NCBI GenBank assembly: GCA_019634165.1
Contig: JAHQVT010000003.1
Span: forward strand, 62,001 to 126,000
Origin: Rhodospirillales bacterium
Lineage (GTDB): Bacteria > Pseudomonadota > Alphaproteobacteria > Rhodospirillales > Thalassospiraceae
DNA length: 64,000 nucleotides
Reading direction: 5' to 3'
The first letter of the stretch is position 1, and every line of letters starts with the position of its first letter. A model generated the notes under the pieces. It was given only the letters and a program-made list of their open reading frames with translations, did not search any database and had not been told where the DNA came from. Shown here one piece after another: positions 2,816 to 62,216 of the stretch. A program made the translations under genes and the position numbers.

Positions 2816-3577
2816 ATGACAGCGAGTTATCACGATATTGATGGGAAATCCGTGCTTGTAACTGGCGGTGCGTCGGGGATTGGTGCGTCGATTGTTCGTG
2901 CCTTTTGTGCGCAAGGGGCGCGTGTTGGGTTTTTCGATATTGATGACGGTGCGGCGCAGTCGCTTATTGAATCGATTCGTGACGAAACCGGCGTTGTGCC
3001 GATCTATAAATCGTTGGATTTACGCAATCAGGCGGCGATTCCCGGTGCTGTTCGTGAATTATCATCGATGATCGGGGCGATTGATGTTTTGGTCAATAAC
3101 GCCGCGCGTGATGATCGCCACGCACCAGAGGATATCGGGCCGGACCAATGGCGCGATGGGCTGGATGTGAATTTAAGCCACCATTTCTTTTGTGCGCAGG
3201 CGGTTGCGCCCGACATGAAGAAAAAAGGGTCTGGCAGCATTATTAATTTCAGCTCGGTAAGTTATTTGATGGGCCTGCCCGATCTGGTGGCCTATGAAAC
3301 GGCCAAGGCCGGGATTATCGGCCTGACCCGTGCGCTTGCGCGTGACTGGGGGCAGGATGGCATTCGGGTGAATGCGGTAACGCCGGGCTGTATCATGACC
3401 CAAAGACAGCTTGATCTTTGGATTTCACCCGCCGATGAAGAACGTATCCAAGAACAGCAATGTTTGAAACGCCGGCTGGTTGGCGACGATGTCGCACAAA
3501 TGGTGCTGTTTTTGGCATCAGATGTATCATCTGCGTGCTCGTCCCAGAACTTCATCGTGGATGGCGGTATTGTCTGA
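2816..3577 (+). CDS. SDR-family D-xylose 1-dehydrogenase-like enzyme
   Basis: A classical short-chain dehydrogenase of 253 residues: N-terminal TGGASGIG cofactor motif, NNAA motif, Ser in FSSVSY, and YETAK supplying the catalytic Tyr and Lys. It resembles the Caulobacter NAD-dependent xylose dehydrogenase (there called XylB) in details such as DDRH after the NNA motif and a QCLKRR segment near the C-terminus. It would oxidise D-xylose to xylonolactone in the cytoplasm. The start at 2816 is preferred over the ATG at 2801 because AGGGA lies about five bases upstream. No lactonase gene is seen between it and the dehydratase. A related aldose dehydrogenase activity cannot be excluded. Confidence 0.82.
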   Translation: MTASYHDIDGKSVLVTGGASGIGASIVRAFCAQGARVGFFDIDDGAAQSLIESIRDETGVVPIYKSLDLRNQAAIPGAVRELSSMIGAIDVLVNNAARDDRHAPEDIGPDQWRDGLDVNLSHHFFCAQAVAPDMKKKGSGSIINFSSVSYLMGLPDLVAYETAKAGIIGLTRALARDWGQDGIRVNAVTPGCIMTQRQLDLWISPADEERIQEQQCLKRRLVGDDVAQMVLFLASDVSSACSSQNFIVDGGIV

Positions 3578-3643
3578 TGTGCGCTTTACGTGCTTAATCC
3601 TGCCCAAATTGTTGCACCCGCCAAGAATTGAGAATTGAACACC

Positions 3644-5806
3644 ATGTCGCCCACCAATTTGCCTGCATCCCCGATCATCATTGATGAGAAGGCCAATCCG
3701 TATCGCGATTGTATTCAGGGATTGGCCAATCAGCCGATCACAGTGATCAGACTTTTGCGCGACGGGGTGAATGAAAACCCGGTTCTGGCGCGTGATCGCC
3801 ATTTTGATGTGCCGGAAATCAAAGATGTGGTCGGGCGTCTGGTTGAAAACCGGCCGCGTGTTGCGATCATTGCCGGTGCGCCAGACCACCCGGCCCATCT
3901 TTTGGACCGGCCGCAGGCCTTGATGGCGGCTATTCGTATTTGGGAAATGGGCGGGGTGCCGTTCCTGTTTCATGTGCCTGTCATTTGCGATGGCACGGCA
4001 CAGAACAATATCGGGCAAAGCTACTCCCTAGCATCGCGCAATCATACGGCAGCCGCAGTTAACATTACCTTTGAAGGGCATAGCTATCACGCCGCATATG
4101 TCATTGCCGGATGTGACAAATCCCCCGCCGCCGTGGTGGCCGGATTGGCGTCTGCGGATCATGCGCGGGCTTACCGTGGGGATCAGGCACCGGTTTGGGC
4201 GGTGTTTGCGCCATCGCATGTTCTAAAGGGCGGTGAAATTCCTGATGGAACACGCCGTTTACTTGAAAACATCGCCAAGGATGCCGATCAGGCCGGGCAT
4301 AATGATCTTGGGTCCGATATTCGTGAAAACATGCGCTATATCCTGCAATGCACCTCGGACGAGGCCTTTGCCGGATTGCTGGAACGCGCAAGGTTGCTGG
4401 GCTTGATTGATGCCGGGCTGGAACGCCGGGTGCTGGATCAATTGGCGGCGGCAACCTGTGATTCCAAGGGCGGTATTTGTGCCTTTAACGGTACGGGGAA
4501 TTCATCTCGCACCATGTTGGCGGCTTTTGGCCTGACCCCGCCAGAGTTGGAATTGCTGACCGATGTTCCGCCATATGCCGCCGTGGCGGCGGGCATTGAC
4601 GCGCTGTTTGGGGTGTTTAACAAACCGGAATATGCGATTGGCAATTTGCTAAAGGCCAATTTTGCCAATTTTGTGCGCATTCATAATGCCACCGGATCAA
4701 GCAGCAATATGCTTTTGCATCTGCCTTTCATGATGCGCTATGCCGGGTTCGATGTGTCGATTGATGACTATCAGGATGTCCGCACCAAAACACCCGTGCC
4801 AGAAATATTCGCCCATAGCCTGACGGAAAACCGCGATACGTTTGTTCTGGCCCAGCAAATGGCCGAAGGCAAAAACCGGGGTATGGAAAGCATCTATCGC
4901 ATTCTGTCTGATTTGGGGGTTGCGATGGATCTGGATGCACCAACCATCCTTGGTGAAACGTGGGCGGAGCGGATTGAAACCCTTGAAAACCCGATTGATC
5001 TAACGTTGGGGGACGCGTCGGTTATTCGGGCAACCCCAGTGCGAAAGCGTTCTGGGGTGGATGTGATTACCGGTAGTTTCTTTGAAAATTGTGCGGTGAA
5101 AACATCGGGCATGAGCGATCATTTGCTGTCGCATTTTGACGATCATGTTTTCATCGTGCGCTATTACGAGAACGAACATGTTTGTAATGCCGATTTTGCA
5201 TCGCCTGATTTGGTCACGCGCCTGATTGAAACGGACGGCGTTGACGAAGACCTGATTGCTGCGGTGGTTCGGCGTAATGGTGGCAACCGGGTTGATATGG
5301 ATGCGCCAAAGGAGATGTTAGAACAAGGGCATCTTTCCTTTGCCTTTGTCATTGGCGGGCAGGGACCAGAGGCCTATGGCATGCCCGAAATGTTTGCCCC
5401 ATCACAGAATTTGCGCCATCACCGCATTCTCGAAGCATCCTCAATGCTGATCACGGATGGACGTTATTCCGGTGTGACCAAGGGGGCTTGCATTGGTCAC
5501 ATGGTTCCCGAAGCCTTTGCCGGTGGCGGGATTGGTTATTTGCGCGATGGTGATGTGTTACGGCTTAACCTGACAACCCTGACATTGGATTGGCTGGACC
5601 CCGAAGCGTTTCATGATGGCAAAGAATTAGCCGCCGATCCAAGGCGGCTCGCGGAACGGTTTGAATTCTTCGAAGGGCGGATGGCGCGGATGGAAGCCCG
5701 GCAATGCGATATCGCCGCGAGCAATGTTCTCGATGCGATTGGAAATGCTGCGCGCGGCATCGTCCCAAGGGCAGTTGATCGCCGTGCAATCAAGGCTTGG
5801 CGTTAA
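3644..5806 (+). CDS. IlvD/Edd-family sugar-acid dehydratase, long divergent form
   Basis: This protein of about 720 residues belongs to the IlvD/Edd dehydratases. Likely iron-sulfur ligands are the Cys of ICDG, of AGCDKSP and of GGICAFNG. The C-terminal family motifs GPEAYGMPEM and TDGRYSGVTKG are present. Typical members have about 560-620 residues, so this one is long and the region around the third Cys is divergent. Next to a xylose dehydrogenase and xylose transporter, dehydration of D-xylonate to 2-keto-3-deoxyxylonate is the best guess. The ATG at 3644 is preferred over an upstream TTG at 3635. The downstream steps of the pathway are not in this window. Confidence 0.72.
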   Translation: MSPTNLPASPIIIDEKANPYRDCIQGLANQPITVIRLLRDGVNENPVLARDRHFDVPEIKDVVGRLVENRPRVAIIAGAPDHPAHLLDRPQALMAAIRIWEMGGVPFLFHVPVICDGTAQNNIGQSYSLASRNHTAAAVNITFEGHSYHAAYVIAGCDKSPAAVVAGLASADHARAYRGDQAPVWAVFAPSHVLKGGEIPDGTRRLLENIAKDADQAGHNDLGSDIRENMRYILQCTSDEAFAGLLERARLLGLIDAGLERRVLDQLAAATCDSKGGICAFNGTGNSSRTMLAAFGLTPPELELLTDVPPYAAVAAGIDALFGVFNKPEYAIGNLLKANFANFVRIHNATGSSSNMLLHLPFMMRYAGFDVSIDDYQDVRTKTPVPEIFAHSLTENRDTFVLAQQMAEGKNRGMESIYRILSDLGVAMDLDAPTILGETWAERIETLENPIDLTLGDASVIRATPVRKRSGVDVITGSFFENCAVKTSGMSDHLLSHFDDHVFIVRYYENEHVCNADFASPDLVTRLIETDGVDEDLIAAVVRRNGGNRVDMDAPKEMLEQGHLSFAFVIGGQGPEAYGMPEMFAPSQNLRHHRILEASSMLITDGRYSGVTKGACIGHMVPEAFAGGGIGYLRDGDVLRLNLTTLTLDWLDPEAFHDGKELAADPRRLAERFEFFEGRMARMEARQCDIAASNVLDAIGNAARGIVPRAVDRRAIKAWR

Positions 5807-5984
5807 ACCACTTTGCGGGCGTTTCAAAATCACATCGCCCTGTGCCAGAATATTTGATTCCCGCACAGTCAGGATCAGGGCGGCAAAACATAATCCGCCG
5901 CCCATCAGCATCAAGATGCGTCCGATCAAAGATGCCTTTTCATGGCGATAAATACGCATATCTGAGACCTTTATAATTCGGCAA

Positions 5985-6030
5985 AATTAATCAATAAGCC
6001 GGCCGATCAGGCCGGTGTGACCTGATCGGC
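5985..6030 (-). terminator. Probable terminator of the efflux operon
   Basis: Perfect 10-base arms GCCGATCAGG (6002-6011) and CCTGATCGGC (6021-6030) form a hairpin that overlaps the last codons of the outer-membrane factor gene. On the minus strand it is followed by an AT-rich tract with a short T-run. The rest of 5807-6006 lies between convergent genes and shows nothing else I can support. Confidence 0.55.
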
Positions 6031-7494
6031 TGTTTGATCCTTAAGCTGGGCAGTATCTTTAACCGCATCGCCACCCAATGCCTGGTACAGCGTGATCAGA
6101 TTGGTGATACGTTCAAGTTGATTGTTGATAACGGTTTCTTCGGCCGTGCGACGGTCTTCCTGGGAATCCAGCCAGTCTTGCATGGCAACCGCACCAGACC
6201 GGAAACGCGCCTCATAGATCCGTTCGGCGTTTGCCGATGCGCGAAGGGCGGCTTCAAGCCGTTCAGCCCGGCGGTCATAATTGGTGCGTGCCGACAGGGC
6301 ATTTTCCACATCTGCCATGGCCTGATAGGTGGTCTGGCGGAATTCGGTGATGGCCTGTTCATATTCGGCTTCGGATACCTTGATGTTAAGCTGCCCTTCG
6401 TTCCAGTTCAGGAATGGCAGCGCCAGACTGGCACCAAGGGTGCCAATCGGGTTGGATAGAAGATTGCGCAATTGATCGCTGCTTGATCCCAATGTGCTGG
6501 TCAGGCTGATGGTTGGCAGCAAGCTGGTTTTTACGGAATTCAGTTCTTCGACACTTTCACGTAAACGCAGTTCAGCCGCACGCACATCCGGGCGCCGTTC
6601 AAGTAAATCGGCAGGCAAACCTTCGGGGATGGTTGGCAAAAAACCAGAAGGTAAAGCAGTTCGGGTGATCGTGATATCTGATGGCGGCTGATTGAACAGG
6701 ATCGACAGGGCGTTTTTGGTTTCCGTCAGGCTTTGTTCAATCTGGGTAACGGCCGCGCGCTGACTTTCAAGGTTGCTGCGTGCCTCGTTGACTTCAAGCG
6801 AGGAGGTTGAACCAGATGCATATTGCACATCGACCAGATCAAGGGTGAGTTGGGCGTAATCAATGCTGGCCTGTGCAATATCAAGACGCTGCTGATAATA
6901 GACTGCCTGCCAATAAAGCGTTGCAGTGGTGCCGATCAATGACAGGGCGGTGCTTTCGCGGTCCTCTAAGGTTGCCAAGGCTTCCCATTTGGCCGCGTCA
7001 TAGTCGTGACCAAGCTTACCCCACAAATCAAGTTCATAGCTGATCCCTGCTTCAAGACCAAAGCTTCGGCTGATGTCACCGTTGCTGTTGTTATCTTGGC
7101 TGTCAAACTGGCGCGATATGGATGTGTCACTGCCTGCGGATAAATCAGGATACAGTGCATCTTCGGCCAAGCCTGCGGTTAATTGTGCCTGACGGACCTT
7201 GATCGTGGCGGCGGCAAGATCGTTGTTGGTTTCAAGTGCCTTGGCGATCAGAAGGTTTAACTGAGGATCGTCAAAGTTCTTCCACCAGCCGGTTTTGGCA
7301 AGAATTTCGGCACGGGTTTTATCATCATTCGTTGCAGACAATTGGGTTTGTGAAACCGCACTTGTGGCAACACCCCACTGATTTGGCATCGCCATATCGG
7401 GCTGGGTATAGGTGACTTCTGATAAGCTTGAACACCCGGCAAGGATCAGCATCGACAAGATGGTTCCGGTTTTCAGGATTTTTTTCATTTTCAT
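6007..7494 (-). CDS. Outer-membrane efflux lipoprotein, NodT/OprM-type TolC family
   Basis: A 495-residue outer-membrane factor with a lipoprotein signal peptide; the lipobox LAGC places the lipidated Cys at about residue 21. The body has the duplicated coiled-coil TolC/OprM architecture, with the family signature LPADLLERRPDVRAAELRLR near residue 295. It would form the outer-membrane channel for the MacA/MacB pair encoded immediately upstream, nine bases away on the same strand. The three genes read leftward as macA-macB-channel. The product exported (macrolide, peptide or lipid) cannot be told from sequence. Confidence 0.88.
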   Translation of the reverse strand: MKMKKILKTGTILSMLILAGCSSLSEVTYTQPDMAMPNQWGVATSAVSQTQLSATNDDKTRAEILAKTGWWKNFDDPQLNLLIAKALETNNDLAAATIKVRQAQLTAGLAEDALYPDLSAGSDTSISRQFDSQDNNSNGDISRSFGLEAGISYELDLWGKLGHDYDAAKWEALATLEDRESTALSLIGTTATLYWQAVYYQQRLDIAQASIDYAQLTLDLVDVQYASGSTSSLEVNEARSNLESQRAAVTQIEQSLTETKNALSILFNQPPSDITITRTALPSGFLPTIPEGLPADLLERRPDVRAAELRLRESVEELNSVKTSLLPTISLTSTLGSSSDQLRNLLSNPIGTLGASLALPFLNWNEGQLNIKVSEAEYEQAITEFRQTTYQAMADVENALSARTNYDRRAERLEAALRASANAERIYEARFRSGAVAMQDWLDSQEDRRTAEETVINNQLERITNLITLYQALGGDAVKDTAQLKDQTADQVTPA

Positions 7495-7503
7495 ATATCT
7501 CTG

Positions 7504-9504
7504 TTAGTCGCGCGACAGGGCGTCGACCGGGTCAAGCTGCGCGGCATTGCGAGCAGGTAAAAAGCCAAAAGTCATGCCGATCAATGTCGCGCAGGCAAAG
7601 GCACCGATGATTGATCCGGCGGAATAGACCATCGAAAAACTGCTGCCGATGACGTCAAACAAAACGCCAATACCAAGTGCGCCAAGTACACCAAGGCCAC
7701 CGCCAAGGATGCAAACCAGAACCGCCTCGATCAGGAATTGACGCAGAATGTCATTTTGACGCGCGCCCACGGCCATGCGGACCCCGATTTCACCGGTACG
7801 TTCAGTGACCGATACCAACATGATATTCATCACCCCAATACCCCCAACGATCAGCGAAATAACCGCGATCGAAGAAATCAAAAGCGTCATGGTGCTTGTG
7901 GTTTTCTCGACCGTCTGGCGAATGCTGTCGCTGTTGATGGTAAAGAAATCTTTGGTGCCGTGGCGTTGGCTGATGAGTTTCGTGATCTGGGTTTCTGCAA
8001 CGGCGGGATCGACGCTATCTGCGACACGCACGGTTATACTGCTGAGGTAGTTTTGCCCCAGAATGCGGGTTAAGGCCGTGCTGTGTGGCACCCAGATGTT
8101 CAAGCTGTCCTGATTGCCAAATGTGCTGGTTTTCTTGGCCGTCACACCAATGATTTGCACCGGAACCGATCCCAGAAGGATTACTTCGCCAACGGCATTT
8201 CCCCCGTTGGGAAACAGTTTTTGGACGGTGTTGTCATCAATGATGGCGACCTGTGCGCGTTTGGTGATGGCCCGCTGGTCAAACCAGATGCCGTCGGCCA
8301 TTTCATAGCCGCGCACGCGATAGTAATCAGTACCAACGCCGGTCACACTGGCATCAACTTCGATATTGCGATAGCGCAGGGCAACCGTGCTTGAAACACG
8401 TGGGGTGACGCTATCGACAAAATATTGGCTTGATAGCACTTCGGCATCGCCCGCGGTCAGGGTTCTGATTTGATCGGCATCACGATCGCCAAAATCCTTG
8501 CCGCGGTTGATATCAATCGTGCTGGTGCCGATTTGGCTGATGTCTGAAAGAATGCGTTCCTGCGATCCTTTGCCAAGGGCAACAACCGATACCACCGATG
8601 CAATACCGATAATGATGCCAAGCATGGTCAAAAACGTCCGCAACCGATGGGCATTCATTGCGATCAATGACATCTTGAATGCTTCGCCAAAACGATTGAT
8701 CTGTGATCGCCATCCTGCATCGGTTGAGCGGGCCGGGTCCATAAGGGCCGGTTTTGCCGAATTTGCGGATTTGGCGGCAATCCGTTCATCGCGGATAATT
8801 TCGCCATCGCGGATTTCAATAATGCGTTCGGCGTGGGCGGCAACCTCTGGGTCATGGGTCACCAAAATTACGGTATGACCGTCACGGTGCAAATCACGCA
8901 ACAGATCAAGTGTTTGTGCCCCGCTTTGACTGTCAAGCGCGCCGGTTGGTTCATCGGCCAGAATGACGTCGCCACCATTCATCAAGGCACGGGCAATGCT
9001 AACGCGTTGCTGTTGACCACCGGAAAGCTGACTTGGGCGGTGGTGGATGCGGTCTGCCAACCCGACACGGGTCAGAATATCGGTCGCACGTGCTGCGCGT
9101 TCATCGGTATCCGCACCGCTATAGATCGCGGGAACCTCGACATTGCCAAGCGCACTTAGGTCTGACAACAAGTGATAGCGTTGAAAGATAAAGCCGAAAT
9201 ATTCCCGGCGCAGGGCGGCAAGTTCGTCAGGTTCAAGGTCACCCGTGATGCGCCCATTAATGCGGTATTCGCCTTCGGTCGGGCGATCAAGACAGCCAAG
9301 AATGTTCATCAAGGTCGATTTGCCAGACCCCGAAGCCCCAATGATCGCGACCATTTCACCGCGTTCAATCGTAAGATCAACACCCTTAAGCACGGCGATT
9401 TGTTCTTCGCCAGCGGGATAGTGGCGCCACAGGTTGCGGATTTCAATCAGCGGTGCGCCCGCAGTTGACCCGGTTTGGGTGGTTGGTGTGGTTTCATCAC
9501 GCAT
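7504..9504 (-). CDS. macB: MacB-type ABC exporter (ATPase fused to permease)
   Basis: About 666 residues: an N-terminal ABC ATPase with Walker [10 protein letters not shown], signature LSGGQQQR and Walker [12 protein letters not shown], a linker, one membrane helix near residue 290, a large periplasmic MacB_PCD domain and three C-terminal FtsX-type helices. MacB is a mechanotransmission exporter that works with a periplasmic adaptor and a TolC-like channel, both encoded next to it. The ATG at 9504 begins two bases after the macA stop; a TTG six bases upstream would overlap macA. Substrate is unknown, since homologues handle macrolides, lipopeptides, siderophores or toxins. Confidence 0.9.
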
Positions 9505-39156: not shown

Positions 39157-39900
39157 ATGACCAAAGAACCATTTAGTATCTCTGTCGCGCTTTCCCGGTC
39201 GTCGCATTCTGATGAAGATCATGATGATGCGGTGCTGGAAGTCGGTGAAAGCATGGAAATTGTCGAGGGGGATGAAGGCGCGCTGGTGACCAAGCGCCTT
39301 CGCGATCCAGACGTAACCCGCCAAAAACTTCTTGATGCTGCCTTTGGCGAAATCCGCCGTTCGGGATTTGGCGGGGCATCAATCAGTAATATCCTTGAAC
39401 TTAGCGGCTGCACCAAAGGTGCGCTGTATCATCACTTTTCGGGCAAGGCCAAGCTGGTCAATGCCGTGATCGAAGATTGCTTGCCCGGCTATGTTGATGA
39501 AGTCTGGCTTGATGATCTTGAAGGTGCCGAAGACATCCTGCCTGTCATGATGGGGCAGGTCGACCGACTTGGCGGGGAAGATGCACCTGCCTTGCTTGAG
39601 GGTGGGTGTCCTTTGGCGCGACTTGCTTCCGGGGCGGGGGAGCTTGATGAGAACCTTCGCAAACGCATTGATGGTGTTTATCGTTATTGGCGTCGCAGCC
39701 TGGCATCGCATATCGGCAAGGCGCAGTTTAACAAAACTGTGCGGACAGACGTCGAACCATCTGCCGTGGCAGAATTTATCATTGCATCGTTACATGGGTT
39801 CCTGACCCGGCCACCGGCCTTGCGCAACCTTGAAACGCAAGATGCGTTTGCCCGCGAATTTGCCCGTTATCTGAACAATCTGCGCCCACCTAACGCATGA
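39157..39900 (+). CDS. TetR-family transcriptional regulator
   Basis: A 247-residue regulator. The DNA-binding domain lies unusually far in, at about residues 50-95 (RQKLLDAAFGEIRRSGFGGAS then LSGCTKGALYHHFSGKAKL), preceded by a roughly 45-residue acidic lead (DEDHDDAVLEVGESMEIVEGD). The C-terminal ligand domain has GGCPLARLASGAGE, seen in the YcdC/AcuR-like TetR group. The start may be downstream if the acidic lead is not translated, though no in-frame ATG with a good ribosome-binding site was found. It is divergent from nadK. Effector unknown. Confidence 0.85.
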   Translation: MTKEPFSISVALSRSSHSDEDHDDAVLEVGESMEIVEGDEGALVTKRLRDPDVTRQKLLDAAFGEIRRSGFGGASISNILELSGCTKGALYHHFSGKAKLVNAVIEDCLPGYVDEVWLDDLEGAEDILPVMMGQVDRLGGEDAPALLEGGCPLARLASGAGELDENLRKRIDGVYRYWRRSLASHIGKAQFNKTVRTDVEPSAVAEFIIASLHGFLTRPPALRNLETQDAFAREFARYLNNLRPPNA

Positions 39901-40047: not shown

Positions 40048-40971
40048 ATGCGTTCCCTTATCCTTACTGCCGTTGCAGCAGTCACCTTTGCCTTTGCAGG
40101 CGGTGCAGCGCAGGCAGAACGCCTTACCGACAAGCCGCTGGTTGATGCCAGCTGGGTTGAAGCAAACCTTGGCAATCCGTCATTGGTAGTTGTTGATATC
40201 CGTTCGATGACCAAAGAAGGCAGCCCGTATGATGCCGGTCACATTGCCGGTTCGGTTTATGCGCCTTATGGTAAATTTGGCTGGCGGGCAAAGGTCGATA
40301 ATGTTGTTGGCATGCTGCCGCCGGTTGATGTGATTTCCAAACGCATCGGATCGCTTGGCATTGATAATGACAAGCAGGTAGTTGTTGTGCCTGCTGGTCA
40401 GAACAGTTCGGACTTTGGTGCGGCTACCCGCGTTTATTGGACCTTTAAGGTTCTGGGTCATGATGCTGTGACCATTCTTGATGGTGGTCAGCGCGCTTGG
40501 GTTGCTGCGGGCAAAGCTGTTTCAAAAGATGCAGTCGCCCCGAATGCAGTTGCCTTTAACGCCAATTTCCGTCCAGAGCTTCTTGCATCTGCTGATGATG
40601 TTGCCAAAGCCCGCGCAAGCGGTATTGAACTGATTGATGCCCGCCCGGCCGCGCAGTTCACCGGCAAAGCAAAAAGCGGTGTTGTTGCCCGCGCCGGTGC
40701 CGTACCGGGTGCGAAAAACATTTCGCAAGCACAATTCTATAGCGATGAGAAAGGTGCCTTTGTGGCATCGAATGTGATTGAAACACTGGTTGCAGATGCA
40801 GGCGTTTCTAAAGACGCCAAGGAAATCACCTATTGCAACACCGGTCACTGGGCATCGGTTGCATGGTTTGGCTTGTCTGAAGTGATGGGCAATAAGAACA
40901 CCGCGATGTATGATGGTTCGATGACCGAATGGGCTGCTGATCCGGCGCGTGAAATGGTCATCCCGAAATAA
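40048..40971 (+). CDS. Secreted tandem-rhodanese thiosulfate sulfurtransferase
   Basis: A 307-residue precursor with a signal peptide cleaved after AQA at about residue 23. Two rhodanese domains follow. The first (residues 30-160) lacks a catalytic Cys. The second (about 180-305) has the active loop CNTGHWAS with Cys263, the only visible nucleophile. Such enzymes move sulfane sulfur from thiosulfate to an acceptor; this one should be periplasmic. GGAG lies about ten bases before the ATG. It precedes a YeeE/TsuA-type transporter and a Cys-repeat protein, so it probably processes sulfur compounds before uptake; this is inferred. Confidence 0.87.
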   Translation: MRSLILTAVAAVTFAFAGGAAQAERLTDKPLVDASWVEANLGNPSLVVVDIRSMTKEGSPYDAGHIAGSVYAPYGKFGWRAKVDNVVGMLPPVDVISKRIGSLGIDNDKQVVVVPAGQNSSDFGAATRVYWTFKVLGHDAVTILDGGQRAWVAAGKAVSKDAVAPNAVAFNANFRPELLASADDVAKARASGIELIDARPAAQFTGKAKSGVVARAGAVPGAKNISQAQFYSDEKGAFVASNVIETLVADAGVSKDAKEITYCNTGHWASVAWFGLSEVMGNKNTAMYDGSMTEWAADPAREMVIPK

Positions 40972-41351: not shown

Positions 41352-42560
41352 ATGCAACATGCTTTAAAGGCACGCCCGCACATATCGGGCTTTGAATTTG
41401 ACAAAGGTCCGGCTGCGATTACGGCTGTGCTGTTTGTCATTGTCGGCATCGCAATCGCACAGGCGGTAGATCTGCATCAGGCCGTTCTTTATGGCTTGGG
41501 CGGGGTACTTGGTATTGCGCTGTATCACGCATCCTTTGGCTTTACCGGTGGTTGGCGCCGTTTTTCGGTTGAAAAGCGTGGGCGCGCAATCCGGGCCCAG
41601 CTTTTAATGATCGGTGTGGCAGCAGCGGCGTTTATCCCGATGCTTGCCCTTGGTAGTCCGCTGGGGAATCCGATTGTCGGTGCTGTGGCACCGGTTGGGA
41701 CATCTGTTCTGATTGGGGCGTTTATGTTCGGGCTGGGCATGCAGCTTGGCGGTGGATGTGGTTCGGGAACCTTGTTTACCGTTGGCGGCGGAAGTTCCCG
41801 CATGTTGCTGACCCTTTGCTTCTTTATTATTGGGGCCGTGATCGGCACAGCACATTTGCCGATGTGGCTTGAACTCCCTGCTTTGCCGCCGATGAGTGTC
41901 GGGCGCGAGTTTGGCGTTGCGGGCGGTCTTGCTGTTACCTTTGCGGGCTTGGCACTGGTTGCCCTTATTACGGTGATGGTTGAAAAGCGTGCACATGGCA
42001 CGCTTGAAGCGACCTCGGTTGCGCCGCGTTCCGGTTTTGCACGATTGTTCCATGGTCCATGGCCGTTGATTTGGACCGGGCTTTTATTGGCCGGGTTGAA
42101 TGTCGCGACCCTTTTGATTGCCGGTCATCCGTGGTCAATCACGTTTGGGTTTGGCCTTTGGGGGGCAAAGATCGCCCAAGGGATCGGTATTCCGGTGGAA
42201 ACATGGGAGTTTTGGAACTGGGTCGGACCGGCAAAGGCGCTTGGAAATTCGGTTCTTGAAGATAATACGTCGGTGATGAATTTCGGGATTGTGATTGGGG
42301 CTGCCTTTGCCGCAGCCCTTGCCGGGAAATTCGCGCCAAAGGTTTCTGTTCCGTTTGCCTCGCTGTTGGCGGCGGCAATTGGCGGTTTGCTGATGGGCTA
42401 TGGCGCAAGGTTGGCGTTTGGGTGCAATATCGGTGCGTTCTTTAGCGGCATCGCATCGGGCAGTGTTCATGGATGGTTGTGGTTTGTGATGGCTTTTGGC
42501 GGTAGCTGGATCGGTATTGCGCTTCGTCCTGTGTTTGGAATGGATGGTTTCCGGAAATGA
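41352..42560 (+). CDS. YeeE/YedE-family sulfur transporter, TsuA-like
   Basis: A 402-residue membrane protein with about ten segments and the duplicated pattern of the YeeE/YedE (TsuA) family. The conserved Cys motifs are present: LGGGCGSGTLFTVGGGSSRM (Cys about 136) and LAFGCNIGAFFSGI (Cys about 358). TsuA takes up thiosulfate along a relay of such cysteines. GAGG stands about eight bases before the start. The last four bases overlap the start of the Cys-repeat gene. The rhodanese upstream supports a role in thiosulfate or sulfane-sulfur import. Substrate has not been shown for this branch. Confidence 0.88.
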   Translation: MQHALKARPHISGFEFDKGPAAITAVLFVIVGIAIAQAVDLHQAVLYGLGGVLGIALYHASFGFTGGWRRFSVEKRGRAIRAQLLMIGVAAAAFIPMLALGSPLGNPIVGAVAPVGTSVLIGAFMFGLGMQLGGGCGSGTLFTVGGGSSRMLLTLCFFIIGAVIGTAHLPMWLELPALPPMSVGREFGVAGGLAVTFAGLALVALITVMVEKRAHGTLEATSVAPRSGFARLFHGPWPLIWTGLLLAGLNVATLLIAGHPWSITFGFGLWGAKIAQGIGIPVETWEFWNWVGPAKALGNSVLEDNTSVMNFGIVIGAAFAAALAGKFAPKVSVPFASLLAAAIGGLLMGYGARLAFGCNIGAFFSGIASGSVHGWLWFVMAFGGSWIGIALRPVFGMDGFRK

Positions 42561-43108
42561 GCGAGAAAAACACACTTCTATTTGGTGCGGTCTTCCTTGC
42601 TGCGACCGGTGCGGTTGCCCTTGATCACTATAGCCACACGGCAAACATTCCGGCTGTTGCGAACCCAGCCCCGGCAAAAATGCCAGCCGCTGGTAGCAAT
42701 CCCTGTGCGGCAAATACCTGTGCCGCCAGCCCATGTTTTGCCAATCCTTGTGCCGCCAATCCGTGTGGGGCGAACCCATGTGCAGCAGGATATAACCCGT
42801 GCGCGGCATCGCCATGTGGGGCCAACCCCTGTGCTTCAAACCCCTGTGCAGCGTACAATCCATGCGGTGCGGCGTACAATCCATGCGGTGCGGCGAATCC
42901 TTGTGCGGCATCGCCCTGTTCGGCAGGGAATCCATGTGGGGCGGGGGCTAATCCGTGCGCAGCAGCACCGTGTTCGGCCAATCCATGCGCGGCATACAAT
43001 CCTTGTGGTGCGGGAAATCCTTGTTCTGCTACCAACCCGTGTGCGGCAGTAAACCCGTGTGCCGCGATGAACCCATGCGGTGCCGCGAATCCTTGTTCTG
43101 CATATTAG
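42557..43108 (+). CDS. Cysteine-rich Asn-Pro-Cys repeat protein, membrane-anchored
   Basis: A 183-residue protein that begins with a short hydrophobic helix (residues about 7-22) as a signal anchor, then a Pro/Ala linker, and then about 135 residues of nearly unbroken NPCAA-type repeats. I count 24 Cys, almost all as N-P-C, S-P-C or A-P-C, every four to seven residues. The start overlaps the transporter stop by four bases (ATGA), a sign of coupled translation. I know of no assigned function. Dense Pro-Cys repeats facing the periplasm could bind metal or carry sulfane sulfur for the linked transporter and rhodanese. Both the function and exact orientation are inference. Confidence 0.85.
   Translation: MSEKNTLLFGAVFLAATGAVALDHYSHTANIPAVANPAPAKMPAAGSNPCAANTCAASPCFANPCAANPCGANPCAAGYNPCAASPCGANPCASNPCAAYNPCGAAYNPCGAANPCAASPCSAGNPCGAGANPCAAAPCSANPCAAYNPCGAGNPCSATNPCAAVNPCAAMNPCGAANPCSAY
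42851..42892 (+). repeat. Perfect 21-base tandem duplication inside the Cys-repeat gene
   Basis: Two identical in-frame 21-base units (42851-42871 and 42872-42892) encode seven residues each, A-Y-N-P-C-G-A. Identity at DNA level suggests a recent duplication, in contrast to the diverged units elsewhere in the gene. Confidence 0.85.
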
Positions 43109-61523: not shown

Positions 61524-62216
61524 ATGATCCGCTTCTATTTCCACCCAACGCCAAACCCGCAGAAAATCTCGATGATGCTTGAGGCGACCGGCCTTGACTA
61601 TGAAGTTCTGCCTGTTGATACCCGCAAAGGTCAGCAGCATGACCCGGCGTTTCGTTTGATCAATCCAAATGGCAAACTGCCAGCAATTGTTGATACCGAT
61701 GGACCGGGTGGCAAAGAAGTGCGCGTTTTTGATTCAAACGCGATCCTGATCTATCTCGCGGAAAAGACCGGTAAGTTCCTTGGCAAGCCCGAAGACCGTG
61801 GTGAATTCCTGTCATGGTTGATGTTCATTGCCACGGGTATTGGTCCGTTTTCCGGTCAGGCTGTGCATTTCCAGCATGTCGCGCCTGAAGGCAGCGACTA
61901 TGGTGTGAACCGCTATCGCAATGAGATCGCCCGTCACTATCAGGTTCTTGAAGATCATCTTGGCGGCCGTGACTTCATCGTTGGTGACGAGTTGACGATT
62001 GTTGATATCTCGGCGTGGGGCTGGATCGATAAGGCACCGTATGTTCACAAGAACCCGGATGTGATGGCCAAATATCCAAACATCAAACGTTGGTTCGATG
62101 CCATCAATAAACTTCCCGCAGCCATCAGTGCGCGCGACGTTGGCAAAGGCCACAGTTTTAAGATGGAAATGGACGAAGACGCCAAGCGCGCCATGTTCCC
62201 ATCGAACTACGTTTAA
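61524..62216 (+). CDS. Glutathione S-transferase, YfcG/YghU-like, second copy
   Basis: 230 residues, about as long as the divergent neighbour and clearly related (YFHPTPNPQKISMMLEATGLD, NPNGKLPAIVDTD, ESNAI replaced by DSNAILIYLAEK, GDELTIVDISAWGW). The active-site surroundings differ (PNPQK in place of PNGHK), so the two may have different substrates. AAGGAGA precedes the ATG. The 154-base gap between them should hold both promoters. Confidence 0.87.
   Translation: MIRFYFHPTPNPQKISMMLEATGLDYEVLPVDTRKGQQHDPAFRLINPNGKLPAIVDTDGPGGKEVRVFDSNAILIYLAEKTGKFLGKPEDRGEFLSWLMFIATGIGPFSGQAVHFQHVAPEGSDYGVNRYRNEIARHYQVLEDHLGGRDFIVGDELTIVDISAWGWIDKAPYVHKNPDVMAKYPNIKRWFDAINKLPAAISARDVGKGHSFKMEMDEDAKRAMFPSNYV

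Follow-up and report, generated by a model that had tools for sequence, protein, structure and literature searches.

A Pro-Cys tail protein encoded in overlap with a YeeE-family sulfur transporter, a candidate sulfane-sulfur acceptor in Alphaproteobacteria

Genes and features of the locus

The window, meaning the whole stretch of 64,000 nucleotides analysed here (positions 62,001 to 126,000 of Rhodospirillales bacterium contig JAHQVT010000003.1), carries on its forward strand the genes for a secreted rhodanese, a YeeE/YedE-family sulfur transporter and a protein that ends in a long Pro-Cys repeat tail, here called the PC-tail protein (Table 1). The rhodanese starts with a stretch that resembles a signal peptide, judged by eye, and the PDB sequences closest to it are sulfurtransferases. 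The TGA stop of the transporter gene (42558-42560) and the ATG start of the PC-tail gene (42557-42559) share the bases ATGA, a four-base overlap. Residues 48-183 of the PC-tail protein form a tail of 136 residues that contains all 24 of its cysteines and not a single Lys, Arg, Asp, Glu or His. At the other end, residues 6-22 form a hydrophobic stretch with a mean Kyte-Doolittle value of 2.12, and Asp23-His24 and His27 come after it.

Table 1. Features of the rhodanese, transporter and PC-tail gene locus in window coordinates
Feature	Position	Strand	Basis and remarks
Secreted rhodanese	40048..40971	+	PF00581 E 1.6e-24, two stretches; start codon chosen by analyst
Single Cys of the rhodanese	codon 40834-40836	+	within CNTGHWAS
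YeeE/YedE-family sulfur transporter	41352..42560	+	PF04143 E 1.7e-73; 402 aa, one chain
Transporter Cys136	41757-41759	+	alignment to S. thermophila TsuA 6leo
Transporter Cys358	42423-42425	+	alignment to S. thermophila TsuA 6leo
PC-tail protein (NPC1)	42557..43108	+	183 aa: anchor helix (likely), Asp-His, linker, Pro-Cys repeat tail
N-terminal helix of PC-tail protein, residues 1-28	42557..42640	+	AlphaFold2 and hydropathy (predicted)
Pro-Cys repeat tail, residues 48-183	42698..43105	+	24 Cys, 23 PC, 19 NPC; predicted unstructured

An AlphaFold2 model built with 16 family members predicts one helix in the PC-tail protein, at residues 3-28, with mean pLDDT values of 87, 95 and 87 over residues 1-10, 11-20 and 21-30, and from residue 53 on the pLDDT lies below 50 (mean 49.8). 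The predicted helix makes a membrane anchor likely. The initial annotation had described a membrane-anchored Asn-Pro-Cys repeat protein for which it knew of no described function, overlapping its transporter gene by four bases and lying behind a secreted rhodanese, and each of these points was borne out, the anchor as a likely feature, the rhodanese by its Pfam match and its secretion by the signal-peptide-like start. Searches with the window PC-tail protein returned 0 Pfam families, 0 NCBIfam families and 0 PDB sequences at E 1. A Pfam scan of its relatives at loci L115, L203 and L134 likewise gave no family, and the relative at L153 matched LHC at E 0.053, not reaching the cut-off.

As judged from its coding sequence, the PC-tail open reading frame is a real gene and more than a product of chance. 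Its 16 NPC[AG]A pentads are written in 15 different codon spellings. Genus relatives were compared in nine hand-picked pairs, in every one of which synonymous changes outnumber replacement changes; in all nine pairs together one cysteine is mismatched, counted over aligned ungapped positions. This synonymous spelling of the repeats, together with a frame kept across the genus, rules out a chance or wrong-frame reading, and the substitution pattern shows selection at the protein level. A protein-level match is present in 29/29 genus genomes, including the one studied here, and the order of rhodanese, YeeE and tail gene, with an overlap of -4, is whole in 28 of them; in the remaining genome (G022) a contig end divides it between L045 and L032. 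Repeat number shifts fast, the genus tail proteins (n=28) measuring 125 to 233 residues with 14 to 31 tail cysteines.

A TetR-family regulator gene lies upstream of the rhodanese (window 39157-39900), as it does in 24/29 genus loci. It was considered as a further member of the module and set aside, as no family upstream of the rhodanese occurs in more than six of 66 loci from outside Thalassospira among the best 80 named loci described below.

Gene order and tail composition among relatives

A scan of named organisms with an alignment of YeeE yielded 14 Thalassospira loci and 66 others as its best 80 loci, which are the nearest relatives and no census. Hosts outside Thalassospira in this set include Aminobacter, Devosia, Mesorhizobium, Pelagibacterium and Chelativorans, with Sinorhizobium, Martelella, Bauldia, Oceanibacterium and Caenispirillum as further hosts, and the module is found in many soil and sea bacteria. 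The start of a tail gene lies directly behind YeeE in 80/80 of these best named loci (75 by script, five by eye), including L175, L195 and L226, where contig ends cut the tail gene before any cysteine, and the -4 overlap is seen in 73 of the 75 loci found by script. A rhodanese lies upstream of YeeE in 79/80 (78 by script, L187 by coordinates), and the exception, L191, begins at a contig end. For true relatives of the window protein, the link to YeeE and rhodanese that the initial annotation had proposed as a check is thus found far outside the genus. In the plasmid pSymB of the laboratory strain S. meliloti 2011 (L261), rhodanese, YeeE, a tail with four cysteines and a DUF6969-type gene stand together; the gene table of a different S. 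meliloti plasmid, a table stated to be incomplete, does not list the tail gene.

The fourth gene recurs. Directly downstream of the tail gene, 59 of the 66 non-Thalassospira loci among the best 80 carry a DUF6969-type gene, and in L187 it lies ahead of the rhodanese instead; such neighbours were called by BLAST with one such protein, and Pfam gave DUF6969 in both proteins scanned. No DUF6969-type gene was found at six of the 66, of which four end less than 300 bases from YeeE and the others are L176 and L212. Besides the genes of the module, no neighbour family occurs in more than six of these 66 loci, in a survey that took in up to two open reading frames within 900 bases on each side and left its clusters unannotated.

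In an independent sample of 385 class genomes, YeeE relatives reach E 1e-60 or better in 42. From outside the genus, 40 loci were read, one per genome. The tail protein is present at nine of these 40 loci, picked by YeeE similarity alone (eight by script, L116 by eye), and a same-strand upstream rhodanese at eight; the script demanded an Asp with H, T or N as the next residue, and other tails could escape it. With L137 dropped at a contig end, the remaining 39 loci divide into seven with rhodanese and tail, one with rhodanese only, one with tail only and 30 with neither (Fisher p 4e-6), a p value that is only a guide since the loci are related. Several loci count against reading the tail as a sulfur carrier, as proposed below: L119 has a rhodanese and YeeE with no tail; L132 and L136, among the 30 with neither, have a divergent rhodanese upstream of YeeE and no tail; and at L116 a tail is present and a rhodanese was not found. 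At this last locus (5644-6867), YeeE contains in-frame stops; the tail gene behind it looks intact, and a DUF6969-type gene also follows. In a YeeE tree of 54 rows, including 12 of the best 80 named loci, the tail label requires one change compared with 17.6 when shuffled, a result recovered in 76% of 200 bootstrap trees, with a branch support of 74/78 that falls below the starred level. At L120 and L125, YeeE has no rhodanese and is followed by an overlapping DedA/TVP38-like membrane protein (named by eye), which indicates that other YeeE subfamilies have different partners.

The conserved core of the PC-tail proteins appears from their sequences to be an N-terminal helix, mostly ending in Asp-His, and a flexible Pro-Cys tail, and not Asn-Pro-Cys. 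Overall, 1090 of 1100 tail cysteines are preceded by proline: 622/630 in 28 genus proteins (shuffled tails mean 114), 33/35 in eight other class members (shuffled mean 6) and 435/435 in 61 named non-Thalassospira proteins from the best 80, some of them cut by contig ends (shuffled mean 95). Ahead of Pro-Cys, N predominates in the genus and A or S in the 61 named others. Asn-Pro-Cys, which the initial annotation had taken as the repeat unit, was accordingly rejected as a functional motif, since outside the genus only Pro-Cys is kept. Tail cysteines number from one to 31 per protein, odd or even and with varied spacing, and many relatives have just one to four. The shortest complete proteins are those of two pairs of loci. 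The proteins of L134 and L135, near-identical and from one genus, are 60 aa long, with a single tail cysteine in MPCGLGG, another cysteine in the helix and tails rich in His; those of L153 and L154, from one family, are 60-71 aa long with the tail CAPCGAPC. Among 96 proteins picked by an Asp-then-H/T/N pattern, the Asp is followed by His in 93 and by Thr in three, and four more proteins found by eye have DY (L186, L188 and L116) or DQ (L190).

Two alternative functions are suggested by this composition. The tail may be a periplasmic thiolate buffer for metal, be it Cu(I), Hg, Cd or Zn, standing beside the sulfur module, a tentative reading that we consider unlikely, though it is the chief competitor of the sulfur-carrier reading given below. 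It would draw on tails of up to 31 cysteines, on the His-rich tails of L134 and L135 and on a possible copper site, since an N-terminus of the form X-X-His is an ATCUN copper site and a signal peptidase cut after AxA would leave X-Asp-His at the N-terminus of most members. The Asp-His pair in 93/96 and an Ala at the would-be -1 site in 85/96 of the pattern-picked proteins are compatible with such a cut, in a set whose picking pattern itself demanded Asp and H, T or N. Against this, 11/96 have V, I, F or T at that site, and a cleaved ATCUN protein was set aside as the main reading, both for these exceptions and because the model helix spans the site to residue 28. A metal buffer also sits poorly with relatives that have just one to three tail cysteines, with a window tail free of His and acidic residues, and with the neighbour survey of the best 80, in which none of the families beyond the module (each in at most six of 66 loci) looked metal-gene-like by eye. 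The regular thiols along a flexible chain could instead belong to a disulfide-forming or redox-buffering polymer that keeps the cysteines of the rhodanese and transporter reduced or protected, which would accord with a DsbD/CcdA-like gene (named by eye) upstream of the rhodanese in three of the 66 loci of the best 80. We regard this as decidedly unlikely: the cysteines are spread by Pro and small residues at varied spacing, and their number is odd or even and goes down to one.

Pro-Cys repeats and DUF6969 away from the transporter

Proteins with Asn-Pro-Cys (NPC) repeats also occur outside the YeeE module. The genome studied here encodes a second one, NPC2, in the stretch L002 217-1734 (contig C2, 79870-81387). 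It is 106 aa long, looks secreted and is transcribed divergently from an FGE-like gene; DUF6969 (C2:79004-79621) comes behind, and then Usp and TRAP genes. The synteny of NPC2, FGE-like, Usp and TRAP genes was seen in 11/11 further genus loci read (L046-L056). The FGE-like family includes copper enzymes, and the position of the paralogue NPC2 beside such a gene is a further point for a metal buffer. An NPC match at E 0.001 is present in 45/385 class genomes, some of the matches being weak; in a phylum sample, 47/398 genomes have a match. YeeE was seen at five of 28 short class NPC loci read (L057, L058, L077 and L081, of the anchor type, and L072) and not at the other 23.

In several alphaproteobacterial families, NPC stretches stand before or around a cytochrome P460-like domain (L059, L060, L062-L067, L069, L071, L072, L079, L080 and L082), some of them beside FGE-like, cytochrome c and DUF6969 genes; the P460-like calls were made by eye except at L062 and L063, and PF16694 scored above its cut-off in one of the two proteins scanned. 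YeeE, NPC proteins and DUF6969 occur together with no rhodanese at L141, L146 and L149, the last of which (3480-7618) carries YeeE, two NPC proteins (the first an NPC-P460 protein, the second small) and DUF6969, all on one strand. Outside the class, four of the six phylum loci read (L276, L278, L280 and L281) have a CxxCH stretch on NPC proteins, and at L278 DUF6969 adjoins the NPC-CxxCH protein. These NPC-haem and FGE-adjacent proteins share with the PC-tail protein the NPCAA-type repeats and DUF6969 as a frequent neighbour; unlike it, they show no Asp-His anchor helix and usually do not lie beside YeeE. As NPC repeats thus occur in other proteins, mostly away from YeeE, the repeat itself is not sulfur-specific, and there is evidence against the sulfur role suggested by the initial annotation where the repeat as such is concerned: NPC proteins often accompany FGE-like, cytochrome and DUF6969 genes, and 23/28 short class loci showed no YeeE.

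DUF6969 (PF22308) is present in 90/385 class genomes, in 35 of the 45 with an NPC match compared with 55 of the 340 without (p 1e-16), and the distance between the two is less than 10 kb in 28 of the 35 genomes in which they co-occur (by eye). In genomes free of NPC matches, a Pro-Cys open reading frame adjoins DUF6969 at 10/54 loci versus 1/27 control loci, in an adjacency test that recovers 56/66 known cases and whose lone control positive, L147, is itself near DUF6969. This partial co-occurrence links DUF6969 to Pro-Cys proteins without making it a strict partner. For one DUF6969 protein (L189:6543-7127) the predicted structure has a pLDDT of 93.8, and no solved structure matched the model; G, H, H, C and F of the motif GHFHCF are kept in 27/27 aligned members.

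The association raises a third alternative, in which the tail would be a substrate for enzymatic modification of its cysteines and hence a modified peptide, not a carrier of thiols, with DUF6969 as the modifier in the cytoplasm and FGE-like proteins acting outside in other loci. The co-occurrence of DUF6969 with NPC matches and the DUF6969-type gene that follows the tail gene in 59 of the 66 loci of the best 80, and precedes the rhodanese in one more, would agree with it. We nevertheless think it distinctly improbable, as a DUF6969 match is absent from 10/45 NPC genomes, 44 of the 54 DUF6969 loci in NPC-free genomes show no adjacent Pro-Cys open reading frame (by the adjacency test, with its recovery of 56/66 known cases), and the DUF6969 gene of the window's own genome sits in the other NPC locus. 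A wider proposal, doubtful in our estimate, is that Pro-Cys tails are extracytoplasmic thiol scaffolds of a single superfamily, which together with DUF6969 carry out one undescribed thiol chemistry. Its branches would be the YeeE-linked form, the NPC-haem proteins (P460-like and cytochrome c-like) and the small secreted NPC proteins with FGE-like genes; DUF6969 would mature or load the tail, and the transporter, haem domain or FGE-like protein would use it.

Known sulfur importers and a possible carrier role

The window transporter is covered by PF04143 (Sulf_transp) over profile positions 1-310 of 310. The initial annotation had called it TsuA/YeeE-type; membership of the YeeE family stands, and assignment to TsuA proper does not, since it scores 68.9 and 51.8 bits with the NCBIfam TsuA models, whose cut-offs are 400 and 645. 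In the parts of the published accounts used here, TsuA/SoxT thiosulfate importers have three conserved cysteines, C22, C91 and C293 in S. thermophila TsuA (PMC11582611, PMC11073785). C136 and C358 of the window transporter align with C91 and C293, and G63 stands where S. thermophila TsuA has C22, so the transporter departs from the three-cysteine rule of TsuA/SoxT. This position is Gly in 115/115 aligned relatives with a tail protein, and both cysteines are kept in these 115 and in 31/31 without one (146 aligned), with some genomes counted twice. The cysteines of PmpB and PmpA correspond to TsuA C91 and C293, according to the relevant part of PMC11582611, and the window transporter matches this PmpAB-type rule of two cysteines, one per half. 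YedE1E2, a two-subunit YedE importer, is described in the portion of PMC10812762 drawn on here as importing zero-valent sulfur with two essential cysteines. We infer that YedE1E2 belongs with PmpAB as one kind of importer, and the two-cysteine pattern would favour sulfane sulfur over thiosulfate as the cargo.

The transporter and the rhodanese are of known kinds, and the comparison with described systems, made with the sections of the cited papers used here, turns on the partner. TsuA (YeeE)/TsuB (YeeD) also combines a PF04143 transporter with a small Cys-bearing partner encoded alongside (PMC11582611, PMC11073785); TsuB is a cytoplasmic TusA-family protein (PMC11073785), whereas the PC-tail protein combines an N-terminal helix with a Pro-Cys tail that is unstructured and probably lies in the periplasm, and the transporter differs from TsuA by the missing third cysteine. 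SoxT1A/SoxT1B of Hyphomicrobium denitrificans is likewise a case of YeeE-family sulfur import in an alphaproteobacterium, and a 56-aa single-helix protein is encoded near SoxT1A; this 56-aa protein lacks cysteine, SoxT1B depends on three, and SoxT is tied to sox and sHdr genes (PMC11582611). YedE1E2 shares with the window transporter the YeeE family and a pair of cysteines and differs in having two short subunits in place of one 402-aa chain; a PC-tail protein was not found in the part of its description covered here (PMC10812762). In a literature search, no paper was found on DUF6969, PF22308, 'NPC repeat protein' or 'Asn-Pro-Cys repeat', and a PC-tail family in YeeE-based sulfur import is apparently undescribed.

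The reading that we prefer, with about even confidence and from sequence-level evidence, is that the PC-tail protein would be a membrane-tethered periplasmic sulfane-sulfur acceptor between the rhodanese and the transporter. The N-terminal helix would anchor it beside the YeeE-type transporter encoded by the overlapping gene, and the charge-free flexible tail would display isolated thiols, each preceded by a proline. Sulfane sulfur from thiosulfate or polysulfide as donor would be picked up by the secreted rhodanese and loaded onto the tail cysteines as persulfides, and the tail would then deliver it to the transporter's outer cysteine for import. One tail cysteine would be enough, and Thalassospira would have multiplied its tail cysteines into a store. 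The topology, the persulfide loading, the handover and the direction of flow are the parts of this scheme that we infer, and the gene order, which holds across many families, the Pro-Cys rule and the two-cysteine transporter are the observations around which it is built. A working analogy is the swinging arm of SoxY, on which sulfur is carried in the periplasm by a cysteine in a flexible tail of small residues; unlike SoxY, the PC-tail protein has no Pfam domain, has an N-terminal helix and in most members has many cysteines.

A carrier arm is the most likely role because both constant neighbours are sulfur proteins, a tail can have just one cysteine, and the tail is flexible and, in the window protein, uncharged. 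We also count for it the gene order in the best 80 named loci, the joint occurrence of rhodanese and tail among the 39 class loci, the single change of the tail label on the YeeE tree, the finding of no other frequent neighbour family, the two-cysteine transporter and the constancy of Pro-Cys despite varying number and spacing. The single tail cysteine of L134 and L135 is easier to square with a carrier thiol than with a metal cluster, while the His-rich tails of the same two proteins would suit metal and weigh against a carrier. Also against it are the NPC repeats in proteins with no rhodanese or YeeE nearby, and the usual fourth gene, DUF6969, for which we know of no sulfur function. In addition, the periplasm is oxidising and free thiols there tend toward disulfides.

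The authors of the SoxT study describe the import of sulfur into the cytoplasm as poorly understood (PMC11582611). A membrane-tethered thiol tail on the outside, with its gene in the operon of the importer, would be a candidate for the step in which YeeE importers are supplied with sulfur at the outer face, and the uncharacterised DUF6969 gains from the PC-tail loci a recurring genomic context.
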